A stretch of 64,000 nucleotides of DNA from Pseudomonadota bacterium (GTDB lineage: Bacteria > Pseudomonadota > Gammaproteobacteria > Burkholderiales > Burkholderiaceae_C), in assembly GCA_018241225.1 (NCBI GenBank), contig JAFEEG010000006.1:88838-152837 (forward strand). The letters run 5' to 3'. Below are positions 3,084 through 21,380 of this stretch, one piece after another. A program made the translations under genes and the position numbers. Each line of letters begins with the position of its first letter. Positions within the stretch are counted from its first letter, which is position 1. The notes under the pieces are model-generated. The model saw only the letters and a list, made by a program, of their open reading frames with translations, did no database searches and had not been told where the DNA came from.

Positions 3084-6000
3084 TCAGCGGTTGAGCACCG
3101 GGCGCAGCGCCTGGCCGGTGTGGGTGCCGATCTTCACCAGCTCCTGGGGCGGCGCCGCGGCCACCACCTGGCCGCCGCCGTTGCCGCCTTCGGGGCCCAG
3201 GTCGATCACCCAGTCGGCCTCGGCGATCAGGTCCAGGTCGTGCTCGATCACCACCACGCTGTGGCCGCCGTTGACCAGCCGGTGCAGCACGTGGATGAGT
3301 TTTTCAACATCGGCCATGTGCAGGCCCACCGTGGGCTCGTCCAGCACGTACAGCGTGTGCGGCGCCTTGTTGCCGCGGCGCGTGACGTCGTCGCGCACCT
3401 TGGAGAGCTCGGTGACGAGCTTGATGCGCTGCGCCTCGCCGCCCGACAGCGTGGGCGAAGGCTGACCCAGCGTGAGGTAGCCCAACCCCACGTCCTGCAG
3501 CAGCTTCAGCGGGTGCGCGATGTTGGGCATGCTGGCGAAGAACTCCACCGCCTCGTCCACCTCCATCTGCAGCACGTCGCCGATGCTCTTGCCGCGCCAG
3601 CTCACGGCCAGCGTCTCGGGGTTGAAGCGCGCACCGTGGCAGGCCTCGCAAGGCACCTTCACGTCGGGCAGGAAGCTCATCTCGATGGTGCGCACGCCGG
3701 CGCCTTCGCAGGTCGGGCAGCGGCCCTCGCCGGTGTTGAAGCTGAAGCGGCCGGGGCCGTAGCCGCGGGCCTTGGCCTCCAGTGTGTCGGCGAAGAGCTT
3801 GCGGATGGTGTCCCAGAAACCGATGTAGGTGGCCGGGCAACTGCGCGGGGTCTTGCCGATGGGGGTCTGGTCCACCTCCAGCACGCGATCGATGGTTTCG
3901 TAGCCTTCCAGCGATGCGCAGCCGGCCCAGGCCGGGCGCTTGCCGGCGGCATCGGCGTCGCGGCCCGCCTTGGTGGTGCGCTGTTGCGCAATGGCCTGCA
4001 CGTTGGCCAGCAGCACGTCCCGCGCGAGCGTGGACTTGCCCGATCCGCTCACGCCGGTGATGGCCACCAGGCGCTGCAGCGGCACGCTGGCCGTGACCTT
4101 CTTCAGGTTGTGCATTTCGGCGCCGCGCACGGTGAGCCATTGCGTCGCGCCTTCGCCCTCCTCGCCCTGAGGCAGCACCAGGCGGCGCGCATGCAGCGGA
4201 TGGCGGATGGCATCGCGCAGGTAGCGACCGGTGAGCGAACCTTCGGCCGCCTGGATGTCGGCCAGCGCGCCTTCGGCCACCACGCGGCCGCCGCGCTTGC
4301 CGGCACCGGGGCCGATGTCGATCACGTGGTCGGCGCGGCGGATGGTGTCTTCGTCATGCTCCACCACCACCAGCGTGTTGCCCTTGTCGCCCAGCTTGTG
4401 CAGCGCGTTGAGCAGGATCTGGTTGTCGCGCGCATGCAGGCCGATGGTGGGCTCGTCCAGCACGTAGCAGACGCCCTGCAGGTTGCTGCCCAGTTGCGCC
4501 GCCAGGCGAATGCGCTGCGCCTCGCCGCCCGACAGAGTGGGCGCGCCACGGTCCAGCGTGAGGTAGCCCAGGCCCACCTCTTCGAGGAATTCGAGGCGGC
4601 TCTTGATTTCGGGCACCAGGTCGCGGGCAATGTCGGCTTCGCGGCCGCTGAGTTGCAGCGTCTCGAACCACTGGCGGATGTCGCTCACGCTCATGCGCGC
4701 CAGCTCGGCAATGCCGATGCCTGCAATGCCGTTCACTGCTTCGCCAAAGATCACCGCGCGTGCCGTGGCATTCAGCCGCGTGCCTTCGCAGGTGGGGCAC
4801 ACCACTTCGCCCACATCGTCCAGTTCCGGCTCGGCAAAGGTCTGCTCGCGCCCGCGCTGGTCGTCGGCCAGCACCGAGTCGTCGAAGACCTTGCGCTGCT
4901 CCTTGCTGAGCTTGACGCCCGTGCCCACGCAATCGGGGCACCAGCCGTGCTTGCTGTTGTAGGAAAACAGGCGCGGGTCCAGCTCGGCATAGCTGGTGGC
5001 GCACACCGGGCAGGCCCGCAGCGTGGAATACACGTGCGCCTTGCCGATGCCGTCGGTGGGTGCGCCAGCCATCATCGCGCCGCGCAGGCCGGTGAGATCG
5101 CTCAGCACATGCACCACGCCCTTGCCATGCTCAAGCGCCGTGGTCAGCGCCTCGCGCAACTGCGCCTCGTTTTGCGGCAGCACGTCCAGGCTCGCCACCG
5201 GCAGCTCGATGCTGTGCTCCTTGAAGCGGTCGATGCGCGGGAAGTTGGTGGTGGGCAGGAAGGCGCCATCCACCCGCAGGTGCGTGTAGCCGCGGGGGCG
5301 GGCCCAATCGGCCAGCTCGGTGTAGACGCCCTTGCGGTTGCACACCAGCGGCGCCAGCAGGCCGACGTGCTGGCCCTTGAAGTTCTTCAGGATCTGCGCG
5401 GCAATGCTGTCGGGCGTCTGCGGCTGCACCGGCGTGTTGTCGTGGATGCAATGCTGCACGCCCAGCTTCACGAACAACAGGCGCAGGAAGTGCCACACCT
5501 CGGTGGTGGTGCCCACCGTGCTCTTGCGCCCGCCGCGCGACAGGCGCTGCTCGATGGCCACCGTGGGCGGAATGCCGTACACCGCATCCACCTCGGGCCG
5601 GCCCGCCGGCTGCACGATCGAGCGCGCATACGCATTGAGCGATTCGAGATAGCGCCGCTGGCCTTCGTTGAACAGGATGTCGAAGGCCAGCGTCGATTTG
5701 CCCGAGCCGCTCACCCCCGTCACCACGCTGAACTTGCCGCGCGGGATGTTCACCGACAGGTTCTTCAGGTTGTGCTCGCGCGCATGCACGATCTCGATGG
5801 CATCGCGCCCCGGTGCGGGCTGCGCGTGGCCGGCGTAGCTGCGCAGCACTTTCTCCGCCGCCTTGAAGGCGCCGGGTCCGATGGTGTTCTCGTAGTCGGC
5901 CAGCGCCGCGCCGGTAAGCGAGGCGCGGTTCTCGCGCACCTGTTCGGGTGCGCCCTCGGCCACGATCTGTCCGCCGCCGTCACCACCTTCGGGGCCCAGG

Positions 6001-8990
6001 TCGATGAGCCAGTCGCTGGCGCGGATCACGTCCAGGTTGTGCTCGATCACGACCAGCGAATGGCCGGCGTCCAGCAGCTTGCGCAGCGCCCGCATGAGCC
6101 GGGCGATGTCGTCGAAGTGCAGGCCAGTGGTGGGTTCGTCGAACAGGAACAGCGTGCCCTTGCGCGCCAGCGGCTGCTTGCTGGCCGAACTGGTCTTGGC
6201 CGCTTCGGCCAGGAAGCCCGCGAGCTTCAAGCGCTGCGCCTCGCCGCCGCTGAGCGTGGGCACGGGCTGGCCCAGCTTCACGTAGTCCAGGCCCACATCC
6301 ACGATGGGCTGCAGCACGCGCTGCACCTCGCGGTCGTTGGCAAATGCGGCCAAGGCTTCGGCCACGGTCAGCTCCAGCACGTCCGCCACGTTGAGCACGC
6401 GGCCGGCGCGCTCCACCGTCACTTCGAGAATCTCGGGCCGGTAGCGCTTGCCGTCGCAATCGGGGCAGCGCAGGTACACGTCCGAGAGAAACTGCATCTC
6501 CACATGCTCGAAGCCCGAGCCGCCGCAGGTGGGGCAACGCCCGTCGCCACTGTTGAAGCTGAACTTGGCGGCCGTGTAGCCGCGCTGCCTGGCCAGCGGC
6601 GCGGTGGCGTAGATCTCGCGTATGGCATCCCACGCGCCCACATAGCTGGCGGGATTGGAGCGCGCCGTCTTGCCGATGGGCGACTGGTCCACGAACACCA
6701 CGTCGCTCAGGTGGTCGGCACCCAGCAGTCGGTCGTGCTCGCCCGGCGCCTCGGTCGCCTTGCCGAAGTGGCGCATGAGCGCAGGCGCCAGCACGTCCTG
6801 GATGAGCGTGGACTTGCCCGAGCCACTCACGCCGGTGACGCACACCAGGCGCTGCAGCGGCAGCTCCACCGTCACGTTCTTCAGGTTGTGCTCGCGCACG
6901 CCTTCGAGGATGAGGCGCGGCGTCGCATCGCCCACCGGGCGCTTGAAGCCCATGCCGATGGTCTTGCGCCCGCCCAGGTAGGCGCCGGTCAGCGTCTCGG
7001 CGCTGCGCAGCGCCTGCGTGGCGCCGTCGAACACGATCTGCCCGCCGCGAACGCCAGGGCCCGGGCCCATGTCGATGATGCGGTCGGCCGCCAGCATCAC
7101 GGCCGGGTCGTGCTCCACCACCACCAGCGTGTTGCCCGCGTCACGCAGGCGCAGCATGGCCTCGGTGATGCGGTTCATGTCGCGCGGGTGCAGGCCGATG
7201 CTGGGCTCGTCGAGCACGAAGAGCGTGTTGACCAGCGAGGTGCCCAGGGCGGTCGTGAGATTGATGCGCTGCACCTCGCCGCCCGACAGCGTGCGGCTTT
7301 GCCGGTCGAGCGTCAGGTAGCCGATGCCCACGTCGTGCAGATAGCGCAGCCGGGTGGTGATTTCCTCGTACAGCAGCTTGAGCGCCTGCGCTTCGCCGCC
7401 CCTTGCGCTCTCGCCCGTGGGCGCCTCGAGCCGGTCGAAGAACTGCCGAAGCCGCTCGATGGGCAGCAGCATCAGGTCGTGCAGGCTCAGGCCAGGCAGC
7501 GCTTCAAGCTGCGCACGCGACCACTTCGCCCCCACCGGCATGAATCGCTGAACCTGTTTGCCCCCACGCTCGGCACTGTCGTGTCCTCGCTGCCCCCCCA
7601 GGGGGCTGTCGGCGCTTGGGGCGGCCCGGCGCGCCGACGGCGCCAGCACCGCATCGGCATCTTCCTTGCCGCCGATGCGCCACAGCAGGCTTTCCAGCTT
7701 GAGCCGCGCGCCGCCGCACACCGGGCAGGGCGTGTAGCTGCGGTACTTGGACAAGAGCACCCGGATGTGCATCTTGTAGGCCTTGCTCTCCAGGTAGCCG
7801 AAGAAGCGGCGCACGCCGTACCACTGCTGGTTCCACTTGCCCTTCCAGTTGGGCGAGCCTTCGATGACCCACTCTTTCTGCTCGGGCGTGAGCTTGACCC
7901 AGGGCGTGTCGCGCGGAATGCCGGCCGCCTCGGCGTGGCGCATCAGGTCGTCCTGGCACTCCTTCCAGGCCGGCGTCTGGATCGGCTTGATGGCGCCGGC
8001 GCGCAGCGTGAGCTTGTCGTTGGGAATGACCAGGCCCATGTCCACGCCGATGACGCGGCCGAACCCGCGGCAGGTGTCGCAGGCACCCACCGCCGAGTTG
8101 AAGGAGAACATGGAGGGCAGCGGGTCGGCGTAGCGGATGTCGCTTTCCGGGCAGTGCAGGCCGGTGGAGAACTTCCAGATCTCGGGCTGTGCGCCCTCTT
8201 CCGCCGGCAGCGCGTACACCGTCAGCTTGCCCGAGCCGCGCTTGAGTGCCACCTCGATGGCCTCGATGACGCGCGCACGCTCGGCGCCCGACAGTCGAAA
8301 ACGGTCCGCCACCACATCGAGCACCTTGACAACCCCCGCGCTCCCCGCTTCGCGAGGTTCGCCGCCCCCCGAGGGGGCACTCGCCTGCTTGGAGCGCCCC
8401 GGTGCTGCGCTCGTGTGCGGCCTGACCTCCTCGCGTTCGGCCTGCACACGGGTGAAGCCGCTGGCAGACAGCCACTGCTCCACTTCCTCGGCGCTGGTGC
8501 CGCCGGGCAATTCCACCGGAAAGGTCAGCACCACGCGCGGGTCGCCGGCAGCCGCGGCACGCGCCGACAACTGCGCGTAGATGGAATCGGGCGAATCGTG
8601 CCGCACCGGCAGCGCCGTCTCGCGGTCGAACAACTGGCCGGCGCGCGCGAACAGCAGCTTGAGGTGGTCGTTGAGCTCCGTCATCGTGCCCACCGTGGAG
8701 CGCGACGAACGCACCGGGTTGGTCTGGTCGATGGCGATGGCCGGCGGCACGCCCTCCACCCGGTCCACCGCCGGCTTGTCCATGCGGTCCAGGAACTGGC
8801 GCGCGTAGGCCGAGAAGGTCTCGACATAGCGCCGCTGCCCTTCGGCAAACAGCGTGTCGAAGACCAGGCTGGACTTGCCCGAGCCGCTGGGCCCGGTGAC
8901 CACCGTCAGCTCGCCGGTGCGGATGTCGAGGTCGAGGTTGCGAAGGTTGTGCTGGCGTGCGCCGCGAATCCGGATGGAGCCCTGTGTCAT
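3084..8990 (-). CDS. uvrA: Tandem (double-length) excinuclease ABC subunit UvrA
   Basis: UvrA is the DNA-damage sensor of nucleotide excision repair, loading UvrB. Normal UvrA is about 940 residues. This one is about 1968 and consists of two complete UvrA halves. Four Walker A motifs are visible (GPSGSGKSS near residue 33; GVSGSGKST near 720, 1093 and 1648), with four LSGGE-x-QR signatures, four LDEP/FDEP Walker B motifs and CxxC zinc-finger pairs in both halves (for example [11 protein letters not shown]...CPDC and [11 protein letters not shown]...CEAC). I chose ATG 8988-8990 ([10 protein letters not shown]), which begins at the conserved core; in-frame ATGs at 9017 and 9050 would add a non-conserved leader. 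Two low-complexity insertions, near residues 195-219 and 453-477, coincide with copies of a dispersed palindromic repeat. No LexA-type box was found upstream. Confidence 0.95.
7560..7631 (-). repeat. Dispersed palindromic repeat, copy A, in frame inside uvrA
   Basis: A ~72-bp GC-rich segment. Read on the minus strand it has a CCGGGCCGCCCCAAGC edge, a central GCCCCCT/GGGGGGC palindrome, a GCAGCGA segment and a GAGCGTGGGGGC end. It aligns with copies at 8332-8406 (same strand) and 20494-20578 (plus strand). Here it is translated as an Ala/Ser/Gly/Arg-rich insertion near UvrA residues 453-477 without breaking the frame. Confidence 0.75.
8332..8406 (-). repeat. Dispersed palindromic repeat, copy B, in frame inside uvrA
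   Basis: Second copy, more diverged. On the minus strand: CCGGGGCGCTCCAAGC edge, TGCCCCCTCGGGGGGCGGCGA core, GAAGCGGGGAGCGCGGGGGT end. It encodes the segment around UvrA residues 195-219 ([20 protein letters not shown]). The frame stays open, so it behaves as a peptide insertion in the first UvrA half. Confidence 0.7.
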
Positions 8991-9278
8991 GCGTGCCTTG
9001 ATGGGTGGGGCAAACATTCTATGGAGGGTCGGCTGACAGCCTGCTGCCATGCCCCGATGCTCGGTTGCAAAGGCGGGGATTGCGGCAGCCGCCGCGCCAT
9101 GCGCGCGCCAAACGCGCTAGGGCCCGGCGCAAAACGCGCACCTTCTCATGACACCGCCCGAAAAAGAGGGTGCGAAAAGTCGTGCTCAGCGGGTTTTCCC
9201 CGATCGAAGATGCGCTCGCTTCACGCGCCAATATCGCCTCCTGAATCATTTGCTTACAGCGAGCTTCGAGAGAGAACC

Positions 9279-19819: not shown

Positions 19820-20479
19820 TCAGTCCCCGGAGGAGTTCTTCTTGATCTGGAAGGCGGGCGTCACGCCCGGATCAGGACGGCCGCTGAAGATGCGGGCGAG
19901 CCGGCCAAACAACGACTTGAGAAAGCGCCAGCTCTTGTGAATGAGCCAGACGCTGAGAATGAGCACGAGCACCAGCAGCACGCCGAACACCAGCGGGTGC
20001 GCCACGGCCAGCCAGAGGCTCGCGGGCACCGCACTGTCTTCGACCAGCGAAGCGCCCACGTTGGTGAACGGCTCGGGCGAGGTGTTGATGGCTGCGCGGG
20101 TGGTGGCCTTGGCCACGTGCGACGTAGCGGCCAGGCTGCCGCCAACGATGGCCGCCACCAGCGCCATGGCGCCATGGTCCACGCCGAACACACCGGCGGC
20201 CAGCGCGGCGCCGGCCGGCACGCGGATGACGGTGTGCACGATGTCCCACAGCGAATCCAGGCCCGGAATCTTGTCGGCGAAGAATTCGACGAACACCATG
20301 AAGCCGCTGGCGATCAGCACCGCCGGATGCGCCAGCAGCTGCAGCCCGCCTGGCAGCGGAATCCAGCCCAGGTAGCCGGCCAGCCCGGTGAGAAAGACCA
20401 CCAGGTACAGCCGCACGCCGCTGGCCCAGCCGAGGGCACCGGCCAGGGCAATGAGTTCGGGTGTGGTCAGGCTGTCCAT
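19820..20479 (-). CDS. DUF4126 integral membrane protein
   Basis: A 219-residue inner-membrane protein with several hydrophobic segments. LIALAGALGWASGVRLYLVVFLTGL and FFADKIPGLDSLWDIVHTVIRVPAGAAL match the DUF4126 family, and a long C-terminal helix (VFGVLLVLVLILSVWLIHK) precedes a basic tail. I start it at ATG 20477-20479 (MDSLTTPEL); the in-frame upstream extension is encoded by the dispersed palindromic repeat and is unlikely to be translated. It lies between liuC and liuD. No function is known, and the position may simply reflect insertion into the operon. Confidence 0.88.
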   Translation of the reverse strand: MDSLTTPELIALAGALGWASGVRLYLVVFLTGLAGYLGWIPLPGGLQLLAHPAVLIASGFMVFVEFFADKIPGLDSLWDIVHTVIRVPAGAALAAGVFGVDHGAMALVAAIVGGSLAATSHVAKATTRAAINTSPEPFTNVGASLVEDSAVPASLWLAVAHPLVFGVLLVLVLILSVWLIHKSWRFLKSLFGRLARIFSGRPDPGVTPAFQIKKNSSGD

Positions 20480-20493
20480 GGCGATGGCGGCCG

Positions 20494-20578
20494 CCGCCGG
20501 GCCGCCCCAAGGCGAGCCGCGCCGCCCCCTTGGGGGGTGGAGTTGCACGCAGCGAAGCGAAGTGAAAAGCCGGGGGGC
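20494..20578 (+). repeat. Dispersed palindromic repeat, copy C, between liuC and DUF4126 gene
   Basis: An ~85-bp element: CCGGGCCGCCCCAAGGCGAG edge, GCCCCCTTGGGGGG palindrome, then GCAGCGAAGCGAAGT and a CCGGGGGGC end. It fills almost the whole gap between the liuC stop and the DUF4126 start. It is the plus-strand counterpart of the two copies embedded in uvrA. Confidence 0.75.
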
Positions 20579-20579
20579 A

Positions 20580-21380
20580 TCAGATCAACCAGTTGGGCTT
20601 GCGCTTTTGCAGGAACGATTGCACGCCTTCGCGCCCCTCTTCGCTCGCACGGATGTCGGCAATGCCCTGCACCGTCTGCGCCACCAGCGCGTCGTCGATC
20701 TCGCGCCCGGACACGTCGTCGATCAGCTTCTTGCAGGCGCGCACGGCCGCAGGGCTGGCGTTGCACAGCGCCTTGGTCAGCGCGTCGACCTTGGCATCGA
20801 GCTCGTCGGCCGTCACCACTTCATGAACGAAGCCAATGCGATGCGCCTCGGCCGCGGAGAAGCGCTCGGCGGTGAGGAAGTAGCGCTGCGCCGAGCGCGT
20901 GCCCATGGCACGCAGCACGTAGGGGCTGATGGTGGCCGGGATCAAACCGATCTTCACCTCGCTCAGGCAGTAGCCGGCGGTGTCCACGCTCACCGCCATG
21001 TCGCAGGCCGCCACCAGGCCCATGCCGCCGGCGTACACGTCGCCCTGCACGCGGGCGATCACCGGCTTGGGGCTTTCGTGGATGGCGCGCAGCATGCTCG
21101 CCAGGCCCGCTGCGTCCTGGGTGTTCTGCTCGCGCGTGAAGTCGGCGGCGCGGCGCATCCAGTTGAGATTCGCGCCGGCACAGAAGGCCGGGCCGCGCGC
21201 GCCCAGCACGATCACCCGCACATCGGCCTTGCCGCTGGCCAGCGCAAAGGCCCGGCTCAGCTCGCCAATGACCTCGTCGTCGAAGGCGTTGCGCAGCTCC
21301 GGGCGGTTGAGCCAGATGCGGGCCACCGGGCCTTCGGCCTGCAGCTCCAGCGTGTTGAATTGCGTGTTGTCCGTGCTCAT
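20580..21380 (-). CDS. liuC: Methylglutaconyl-CoA hydratase / enoyl-CoA hydratase family (LiuC)
   Basis: A 266-residue crotonase-fold protein expected to hydrate 3-methylglutaconyl-CoA to HMG-CoA. It shows ARIWLNRPELRNAFDDEVI, the first oxyanion-hole motif GARGPAFCAGANLNWM, and AGGMGLVAACDMAVS with SEVKIGLIPATISPYVL, which carries the catalytic glutamate. ANLNWM, in place of the DLK/DI of ordinary enoyl-CoA hydratases, is typical of LiuC. Its ATG start overlaps the stop of the dinB-like gene upstream by the ATGA pattern, so the two are coupled. Confidence 0.93.
   Translation of the reverse strand: MSTDNTQFNTLELQAEGPVARIWLNRPELRNAFDDEVIGELSRAFALASGKADVRVIVLGARGPAFCAGANLNWMRRAADFTREQNTQDAAGLASMLRAIHESPKPVIARVQGDVYAGGMGLVAACDMAVSVDTAGYCLSEVKIGLIPATISPYVLRAMGTRSAQRYFLTAERFSAAEAHRIGFVHEVVTADELDAKVDALTKALCNASPAAVRACKKLIDDVSGREIDDALVAQTVQGIADIRASEEGREGVQSFLQKRKPNWLI

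Follow-up and report, generated by a model that had tools for sequence, protein, structure and literature searches.

The DNA analyzed here is a stretch of 64,000 bp (hereafter the window) from contig JAFEEG010000006.1 of a bacterium whose genus is Variovorax; its genome is referred to as G000. The window contains a double-length uvrA gene that is interrupted in frame at two places by copies (A and B) of a dispersed repeat, and a third copy (C) lies between two codirectional genes (Table 1). We think it likely that a non-autonomous repeat able to form hairpins, very probably the published Beta-proteobacterial repeat element (BRE), was inserted separately at both places in uvrA, and that this repeat would persist in the genome through its readability by ribosomes.

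Table 1. Positions of uvrA, the three repeat copies and their parts in the window
Feature	Position	Strand	Remarks
Double-length UvrA paralogue gene	3084–9050	−	1988-aa ORF, likely start 8990; NCBIfam PRK00349 and TIGR00630 over cut-off
Repeat copy A	7560–7638	+, opposite to uvrA	∼28 aa, residues 473–500; absent in 22/22 aligned genus relatives
Copy A GC palindrome GCCCCC..GGGGGC	7592–7606	+	
Copy A inner arm, variable 8-bp stem	7608–7615	+	pairs with 7631–7638
Copy A conserved 15-nt loop TTGGGGCGGCCCGGC	7616–7630	+	exact match
Copy A outer arm, variable stem	7631–7638	+	
Repeat copy B, degenerate loop	8332–8412	+, opposite to uvrA	∼26 aa, residues 212–237; absent in 22/22; 88.6% over 70 nt to L134
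Repeat copy C	∼20488–20578	−	between codirectional genes 19820–20479 (−) and 20580–21380 (−), oriented as the genes
37-codon mini-ORF through copy C	20467–20580	−	ATG overlaps upstream stop (TGATG); end overlaps next start by 13 nt

The translated open reading frame (ORF) of uvrA, 1988 aa in length, has no stop across either repeat segment. A scripted gene call places the gene at 3084–8990, and the residue numbers of the original prediction are ∼20 lower because the likely start is the MTQG at 8990. Two further UvrA-like genes are present elsewhere in the genome: one of 1024 aa that adjoins ssb and scores over the NCBIfam cut-offs, and one of 840 aa. We take the ssb-linked gene to be the probable housekeeping copy, judging from the usual neighborhood of that gene. 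The presence of this second UvrA means that the role of core DNA-repair ATPase assigned to the window gene by the original prediction is not secured, and double-length paralogue is the description that fits it. In two alignments to solved UvrA chains, among the matches listed, the one aligned stretch (residues 244–464 and 244–461) lies between the two inserts.

In-frame insertions in the uvrA paralogue

Copies A and B share the same orientation. A BLAST search of the source genome with copy A returned 41 matches at E ≤ 10, 25 of which have E < 0.02, in keeping with the dispersed family of the original prediction; copy B is not among the 41. In direct comparisons, the A–B alignment covers 47 nt (81%, E 8e-9), the A–C alignment 43 nt (81%, E 1e-7) and the B–C alignment 44 nt, with a match of only 75% (E 7e-4). 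These alignments uphold the further proposal that the copy between genes belongs with both uvrA segments, and on the evidence of their sequences all three copies are members of one repeat family. Matches outside the source genome reach E 8e-24 for copy A and 2e-20 for copy B. The best of these are other copies from the genus for A (91.8% over 73 nt) and for C (83% over 66 nt), and a Xenophilus copy for B (88.6% over 70 nt). Since A and B have different best relatives, they probably represent separate insertion events.

Both insertion sites are empty in related genomes. We collected UvrA from 24 genomes of the genus, choosing frames by UvrA motifs, and aligned 22 of them; G007 (split over contigs) and G012 (incomplete) were excluded. 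In 22/22 the flanks are conserved and neither peptide (26 and 28 aa) lies between them, and none of the 22 carries the same peptides on DNA unrelated to the repeat. A UvrA match was found in every genome across 59 other genera, and 29 of these 59 loci were examined with a pattern. Within those 29, the site of copy B (site 1) was readable in 10, of which 7 are empty and 3 hold unrelated inserts, and the site of copy A (site 2) was readable in 10, all empty; at the other loci of the 29 the pattern gave no reading. The unrelated inserts, of ∼20–35 aa, occur in G097, G124 and G120 (loci L399, L401 and L425). They show the copy B loop to be variable, as would be expected if both segments were ancient UvrA loops that the relatives had lost and the likeness to a repeat between genes were a chance product of high GC content. 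The empty sites throughout the genus and in most readable loci of other genera, together with the very strong matches to copies outside the genome, make this explanation very unlikely. The sequence supports the original prediction that a dispersed repeat has entered this gene twice, in frame, with the ORF staying open.

The same repeat family is found in frame at other positions in UvrA: at the loop near residue 285 in G003, G005, G008 and G015, and, in other genera, near 545 in G127 and near 165 in G099. A scan of 58 uvrA loci for the loop and palindrome recovered seven (G000, G003, G008, G015, G099, G127 and a doubtful G034) and missed the degraded copy in G005. The ∼285 copy is present in G003 and absent in G013, whose sequence is 93.2% identical. 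A second repeat family, with PSPLPLAGEGRGEG and PHPNPPPEGE-like peptides, occupies other UvrA loops in frame (∼543, ∼1438 and ∼1628) in several relatives, for example G004, G017, G018, G020, G003, G008 and G011 (loci L061–L080). Thus, to judge from these alignments, the variable loops of UvrA are repeated landing sites, in keeping with what the portion of PMC3733652 dealing with uvrA reports for other repetitive extragenic palindromes (REPs). Any tolerance of copies A and B by the protein may reflect where they fall, in loops that vary and that receive other repeats too, within a paralogue. UvrA of G127 additionally bears a PEPVEGG-like insert.

Architecture and dispersal of the repeat

We aligned the copies of the source genome with 80 loci from public records, taken from among the matches listed. 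The repeat unit is ∼75–90 bp long. In order, it has CCCCCACG, then a small hairpin that covaries, then the GCCCCC/GGGGGC palindrome, and lastly the fixed loop TTSGGGCGGCCSGGC between two variable arms. At the right end, an 8-bp stem whose arms covary between copies carries this loop of 15 nt. In 25 copies from G000, a set that keeps L102 (probably a chance match) and the degenerate L104, an average of 7.08 of 9 positions are paired, versus 3.52 ± 0.33 when the arms are dealt among copies. The corresponding values for 84 copies from public records, a few of which are tandem neighbors, are 6.63 of 8 versus 3.43 ± 0.14. The paired fraction in this larger set is 0.75–0.98 at positions 1–8, of which position 1 is nearly invariant and uninformative on covariation, and falls to 0.43 at position 9 (0.28 for dealt arms) and 0.29 at position 10 (0.24 for dealt arms). 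Covariation extends to the small hairpin, readable in 34 copies, with 1.53 versus 0.82 ± 0.12 pairs for the outer two positions and 2.94 versus 2.51 ± 0.09 for the inner three. When folded as single strands, the three stretches of the window do not surpass shuffled sequences (z −0.25, −0.30 and 0.35); the case for structure therefore rests on covariation, and folding energy was dropped as evidence. The covarying 8-bp stem with its fixed 15-nt loop is new relative to the published description of BRE.

Stem arms that vary between copies and yet pair with one another, along with direct repeats of the arm region at some left ends, raise the question of whether the inner arm is copied from, or guides the element to, its target DNA. 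The direct repeats had also suggested that the outer arm is host DNA. The genome of G023 speaks against both ideas: 20 of its 46 copies, at 18 different loci, carry an identical pair of arms, and host DNA is ruled out as the origin of the outer arm. By this comparison the arms are the element's own and differ between subfamilies, and we give the target-derived arm almost no credence.

A pattern requiring exact matches to the repeat found copies in 55 of 61 genomes of the genus, with 0 to 53 copies each; the reversed pattern, used as a control, gave 0 matches in the same 61 genomes. The highest number is that of G023, with 53 exact copies as compared with 10 in G000 by the same pattern. Many of the G023 copies are near-identical and some are in tandem (L261–L300), and this amplification is a recent burst. 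The 80 public loci, among the matches listed, are mostly from Burkholderiales, and the genera represented are Variovorax, Ramlibacter, Hydrogenophaga, Xenophilus, Rhodoferax, Polaromonas, Acidovorax, Achromobacter, Bordetella, Pigmentiphaga, Roseateles and Sphaerotilus. The genome of Bordetella genomosp. 4 (L164) has 15 copies, several in tandem at a spacing of 75–77 bases, and the repeat occurs in 6 of 9 genomes of that genus. In the Bordetella copies L331–L340 the variable arms are T/A tracts and the copies often stand beside terminator-like hairpins, unlike those of Variovorax. A record titled as a Desulfobulbus metagenome-assembled genome (L127) bears a Variovorax-like junction copy and is perhaps a mis-binned contig.

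Presence and absence between species support mobility, both in uvrA and at two gene junctions. Between ddl and ftsQ, the repeat is present in G000 and in 0 of 16 relatives with a readable junction, where the stop and start are close together; one further relative was unreadable and G018 gave no match. The G000 insert is flanked on both sides by CTGACATG. Between hslV and hslU, G000 alone has this repeat, 20 of 23 relatives have none in the stretch read and three (G015, G006 and G012) have another repeat, so this junction has been struck more than once. The other repeat is GC-rich, of the CCGGCAAAGCCGG type (L378, L382 and L385), and is possibly related. We suggest that the repeat has spread in Variovorax by transposition, through a mechanism that would at least sometimes leave a short direct repeat of the target. 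Mobility, present or recent, had been proposed for the repeat; presence and absence within the genus favor this, although copy B is degenerate and a mobilizing enzyme was not found in the genome.

Repeat copies at gene junctions

Placement relative to genes was determined with a home-made gene call based on codon usage. In G000 (23 copies, copy B and L023 being outside this set), 20 copies have codirectional genes on either side, and 18 of these share the genes' orientation; the other 3 lie inside genes. A sample of 31 copies from the genus comprises 19 between codirectional genes in the same orientation, 3 between codirectional genes in the opposite orientation, 1 between divergent genes, 1 between convergent genes and 7 in genes. 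In-frame copies inside genes include those of uvrA, kdpB (TIGR01497) and an FAD oxidoreductase gene (NF006002), the latter two over the NCBIfam cut-off. L023 lies in a molybdopterin-oxidoreductase-like ORF, for which the Pfam match is over the cut-off and all NCBIfam matches are under it.

The original statement that the repeat normally sits between genes is too narrow, as a large share of the junction copies can be read as coupled mini-ORFs. Many of them are spanned by an ORF of 26–37 codons whose ATG sits at the upstream stop (as ATGA, TGACATG or TGATG), whose frame crosses the repeat and whose end coincides with the next start. Copy C, described as intergenic, does lie between two genes, but an ATG overlapping the upstream stop opens a mini-ORF through it (Table 1); this one scored as not coupled under our pre-set window.

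To be eligible for the coupling count, a copy needed two ATGs, one no more than 26 nt upstream of it and the other no more than 34 nt downstream. It was scored as coupled when the in-frame stop began no earlier than 6 nt before the downstream start and no later than 1 nt after it, with frames +1 and +2 serving as controls. The sense-direction counts for frames 0, +1 and +2 are 15, 1 and 5 of 17 in G000 (23 copies), 12, 2 and 3 of 17 in the genus sample (31 copies) and 6, 1 and 3 of 10 in G023 (46 copies). These three sets shaped the rule and share at least one copy (L236 is the same as L285). A clean set was made from 80 further copies by removing 26 that share a flank with the earlier sets and 7 that share one with each other, leaving 47 sites, 29 of them with an ATG on both sides. 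Here the counts are 20, 0 and 6 of 29: 15 sites couple exclusively in frame 0, 5 in both 0 and +2, 1 exclusively in +2 and 8 in none, so that 15 of the 16 single-frame couplings use the true frame. An earlier count of 29, 2 and 9 of 44 (71 sites) was set aside because it overlapped the genus sample by 14 or more of its 80 copies; the clean count is smaller and proportionally no weaker.

Frame keeping of this kind could be, instead of a product of selection, the mechanical outcome of a fixed element length combined with a fixed target duplication, and several copies do have the same ends (CTGACATG) on both sides. Among the coupled copies, however, the offset from the ATG to the element, the element length and the distance from loop to stop each take all three values modulo 3. 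The codon phase at the palindrome is also free, with 3, 5 and 10 of the 20 coupled clean sites in the three phases and 2 without a call. We regard a purely mechanical origin as improbable. The use of all three phases rules out a conserved leader peptide as well, and readability and end point, rather than peptide sequence, appear from these counts to be what is kept.

A more serious alternative is that the main reason for keeping the repeat is its RNA or DNA structure, acting between genes as a 3′-end stabilizer, a partial terminator or a protein site, and that its open frame is a by-product of high GC content. The covariation of two hairpins fits this well, as does orientation: of the copies between genes, 18 of 20 in G000 and 19 of 24 in the genus sample are flanked by two genes that run the same way as the repeat. 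So do the T/A-tract arms and neighboring hairpins of the Bordetella genome, and the fact that the element is open in all three sense frames in 40 of 47 copies, used or not (all three antisense frames are open in 22 of 47). A structural role alone does not predict, however, that the frame of the upstream ATG ends at the next start, as it does in 20 of 29 clean sites versus 0 and 6 in the shifted frames. On balance we consider this alternative unlikely, though with a greater share of probability than any of the other alternatives.

Readability would account for both kinds of location. A GC-rich and mostly stop-free repeat could persist in gene-dense DNA because ribosomes can read across it: inside a gene it would become a loop peptide, and at an operon junction it would become a coupled mini-ORF running from the upstream stop to the next start. 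Both neighbors would keep their signals, and the downstream gene would still be reached by ribosomes that terminate or re-initiate. Of the 20 mini-ORF starts, 9 have a Shine-Dalgarno-like motif in front of them, as do 6 of the 20 downstream starts. In copies with a GGGAGG-like outer arm (e.g. L435 and L459), the downstream motif lies within the arm, so translation of the mini-ORF could unfold the hairpin. A bolder form of this proposal is that the repeat survives in Burkholderiales by being translated, with junction mini-genes of 26–37 codons in any frame, the 3′ hairpin acting as a coupling switch and the UvrA and KdpB copies following the same strategy. We advance it tentatively, at somewhat less than even odds.

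Several observations weigh against the overall interpretation. Of the 29 sense copies in the clean set, 9 lack coupling in the true frame. Coupling in +2 is seen in 6 of 29 (5 of which couple in frame 0 too), frequently with ATGA at the beginning of the next gene. Coupling in the opposite direction is weaker, with 6, 2 and 1 of 13 in the clean set, 1, 0 and 1 of 11 in G000 and 3, 1 and 1 of 9 in the genus sample. Public copies, mostly from other genera, are also weaker (9, 1 and 5 of 35 with an upstream ATG; 71 examined). The copies inside genes are 3 opposite and 0 same in G000, but 4 opposite and 3 same in the genus sample. Direct repeats at the ends are clear in only a minority of copies (mean score 5.11 versus 4.26 for shuffled sequences, 92 copies). 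A transposase partner was not found in the genome: the sole Y1_Tnp (IS200/RAYT-like) match is weak (L081, G000 C54:61391–61714, 45.8 bits), and its 3324-base locus holds no repeat copy and just one loop-like 15-mer with three mismatches. In G023, however, the opposite direction gives 5, 0 and 0 of 10, reading MSAAPGRPKQAR, with a start that resembles that of the copy B peptide.

Repeats are usually treated as untranslated spacers. If the bolder proposal is correct, Variovorax would make many unannotated small peptides without conserved sequence, a potential source of new small proteins and of linker loops. Tolerance through readability in any frame would explain the dispersal of the family into tight operons and into proteins. 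The junction copies would also provide a natural test set for termination–reinitiation coupling, and the UvrA variable loops would be marked as recurrent targets.

Relation to known repeat systems

The identification with BRE is very probable and was made from the published description. BREs are described in the relevant part of Hot et al. (2011; PMC3110155) as GC-rich elements of 75–91 bp that are mostly intergenic, with tandem copies separated by few bases and some copies wholly in coding sequences, from Bordetella and Comamonadaceae including Polaromonas, Rhodoferax and Acidovorax. The unit length found here and the 75–77-base tandem spacing in the Bordetella genome agree with this, as do the titles of the listed records and the 15 copies in Bordetella genomosp. 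4. Tandem copies are present in G023 and in Bordetella, and coding copies in uvrA and other genes. The BRE section of that paper assigns no function, structure or mini-ORF reading to the element, and its main text does not name Variovorax. Among L331–L363, with flanks of ∼1.5 kb, a LexA motif recognized no neighbor like lexA, the gene beside published BRE locus 3; the species differ from those published.

A comparison with Rfam gave 0 matches at the gathering score in 12 sources (the window and 11 loci). As for miniature inverted-repeat transposable elements (MITEs), direct repeats such as a target duplication would leave score above shuffled sequences and are clear in a minority, CTGACATG at ddl–ftsQ being an example. 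Searches of the open-licence literature for the loop sequence, and for MITEs together with translational coupling, returned nothing relevant, and no account of repeat-borne coupled mini-ORFs was found there. The junction mini-ORF reading is a further new part of this work beside intragenic insertion, which is already known.

The uvrA insertions proper are a fresh case of a kind already published for other repeat families. A close likeness is to the GTAG and CGTC REPs which, according to PMC3733652, are dispersed palindromes inserted in frame to code for 20–30 aa, twice in one uvrA and also in uvrB, with several of the insertions in DNA-repair genes. They differ in having units of 20–40 bp with tags, and the GTAG families are tied there to transposase genes. 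No GTAG or CGTC tag was noticed in the repeat copies read, for which no formal scan was made, and the arrangement of REP-associated tyrosine transposases (RAYTs), a transposase gene flanked by the repeat, is not seen in this genome, where the Y1_Tnp locus is free of it. The enterobacterial RU elements of Delihas (2007; PMC2759123) are likewise small mobile repeats with open frames that occur in genes; they differ in that the abstract describes fusions in annotated genes and makes no mention of coupled operon-junction linkers. Rickettsia palindromic elements, as cited in PMC3733652, are likewise palindromic and in frame in protein genes, in another lineage.

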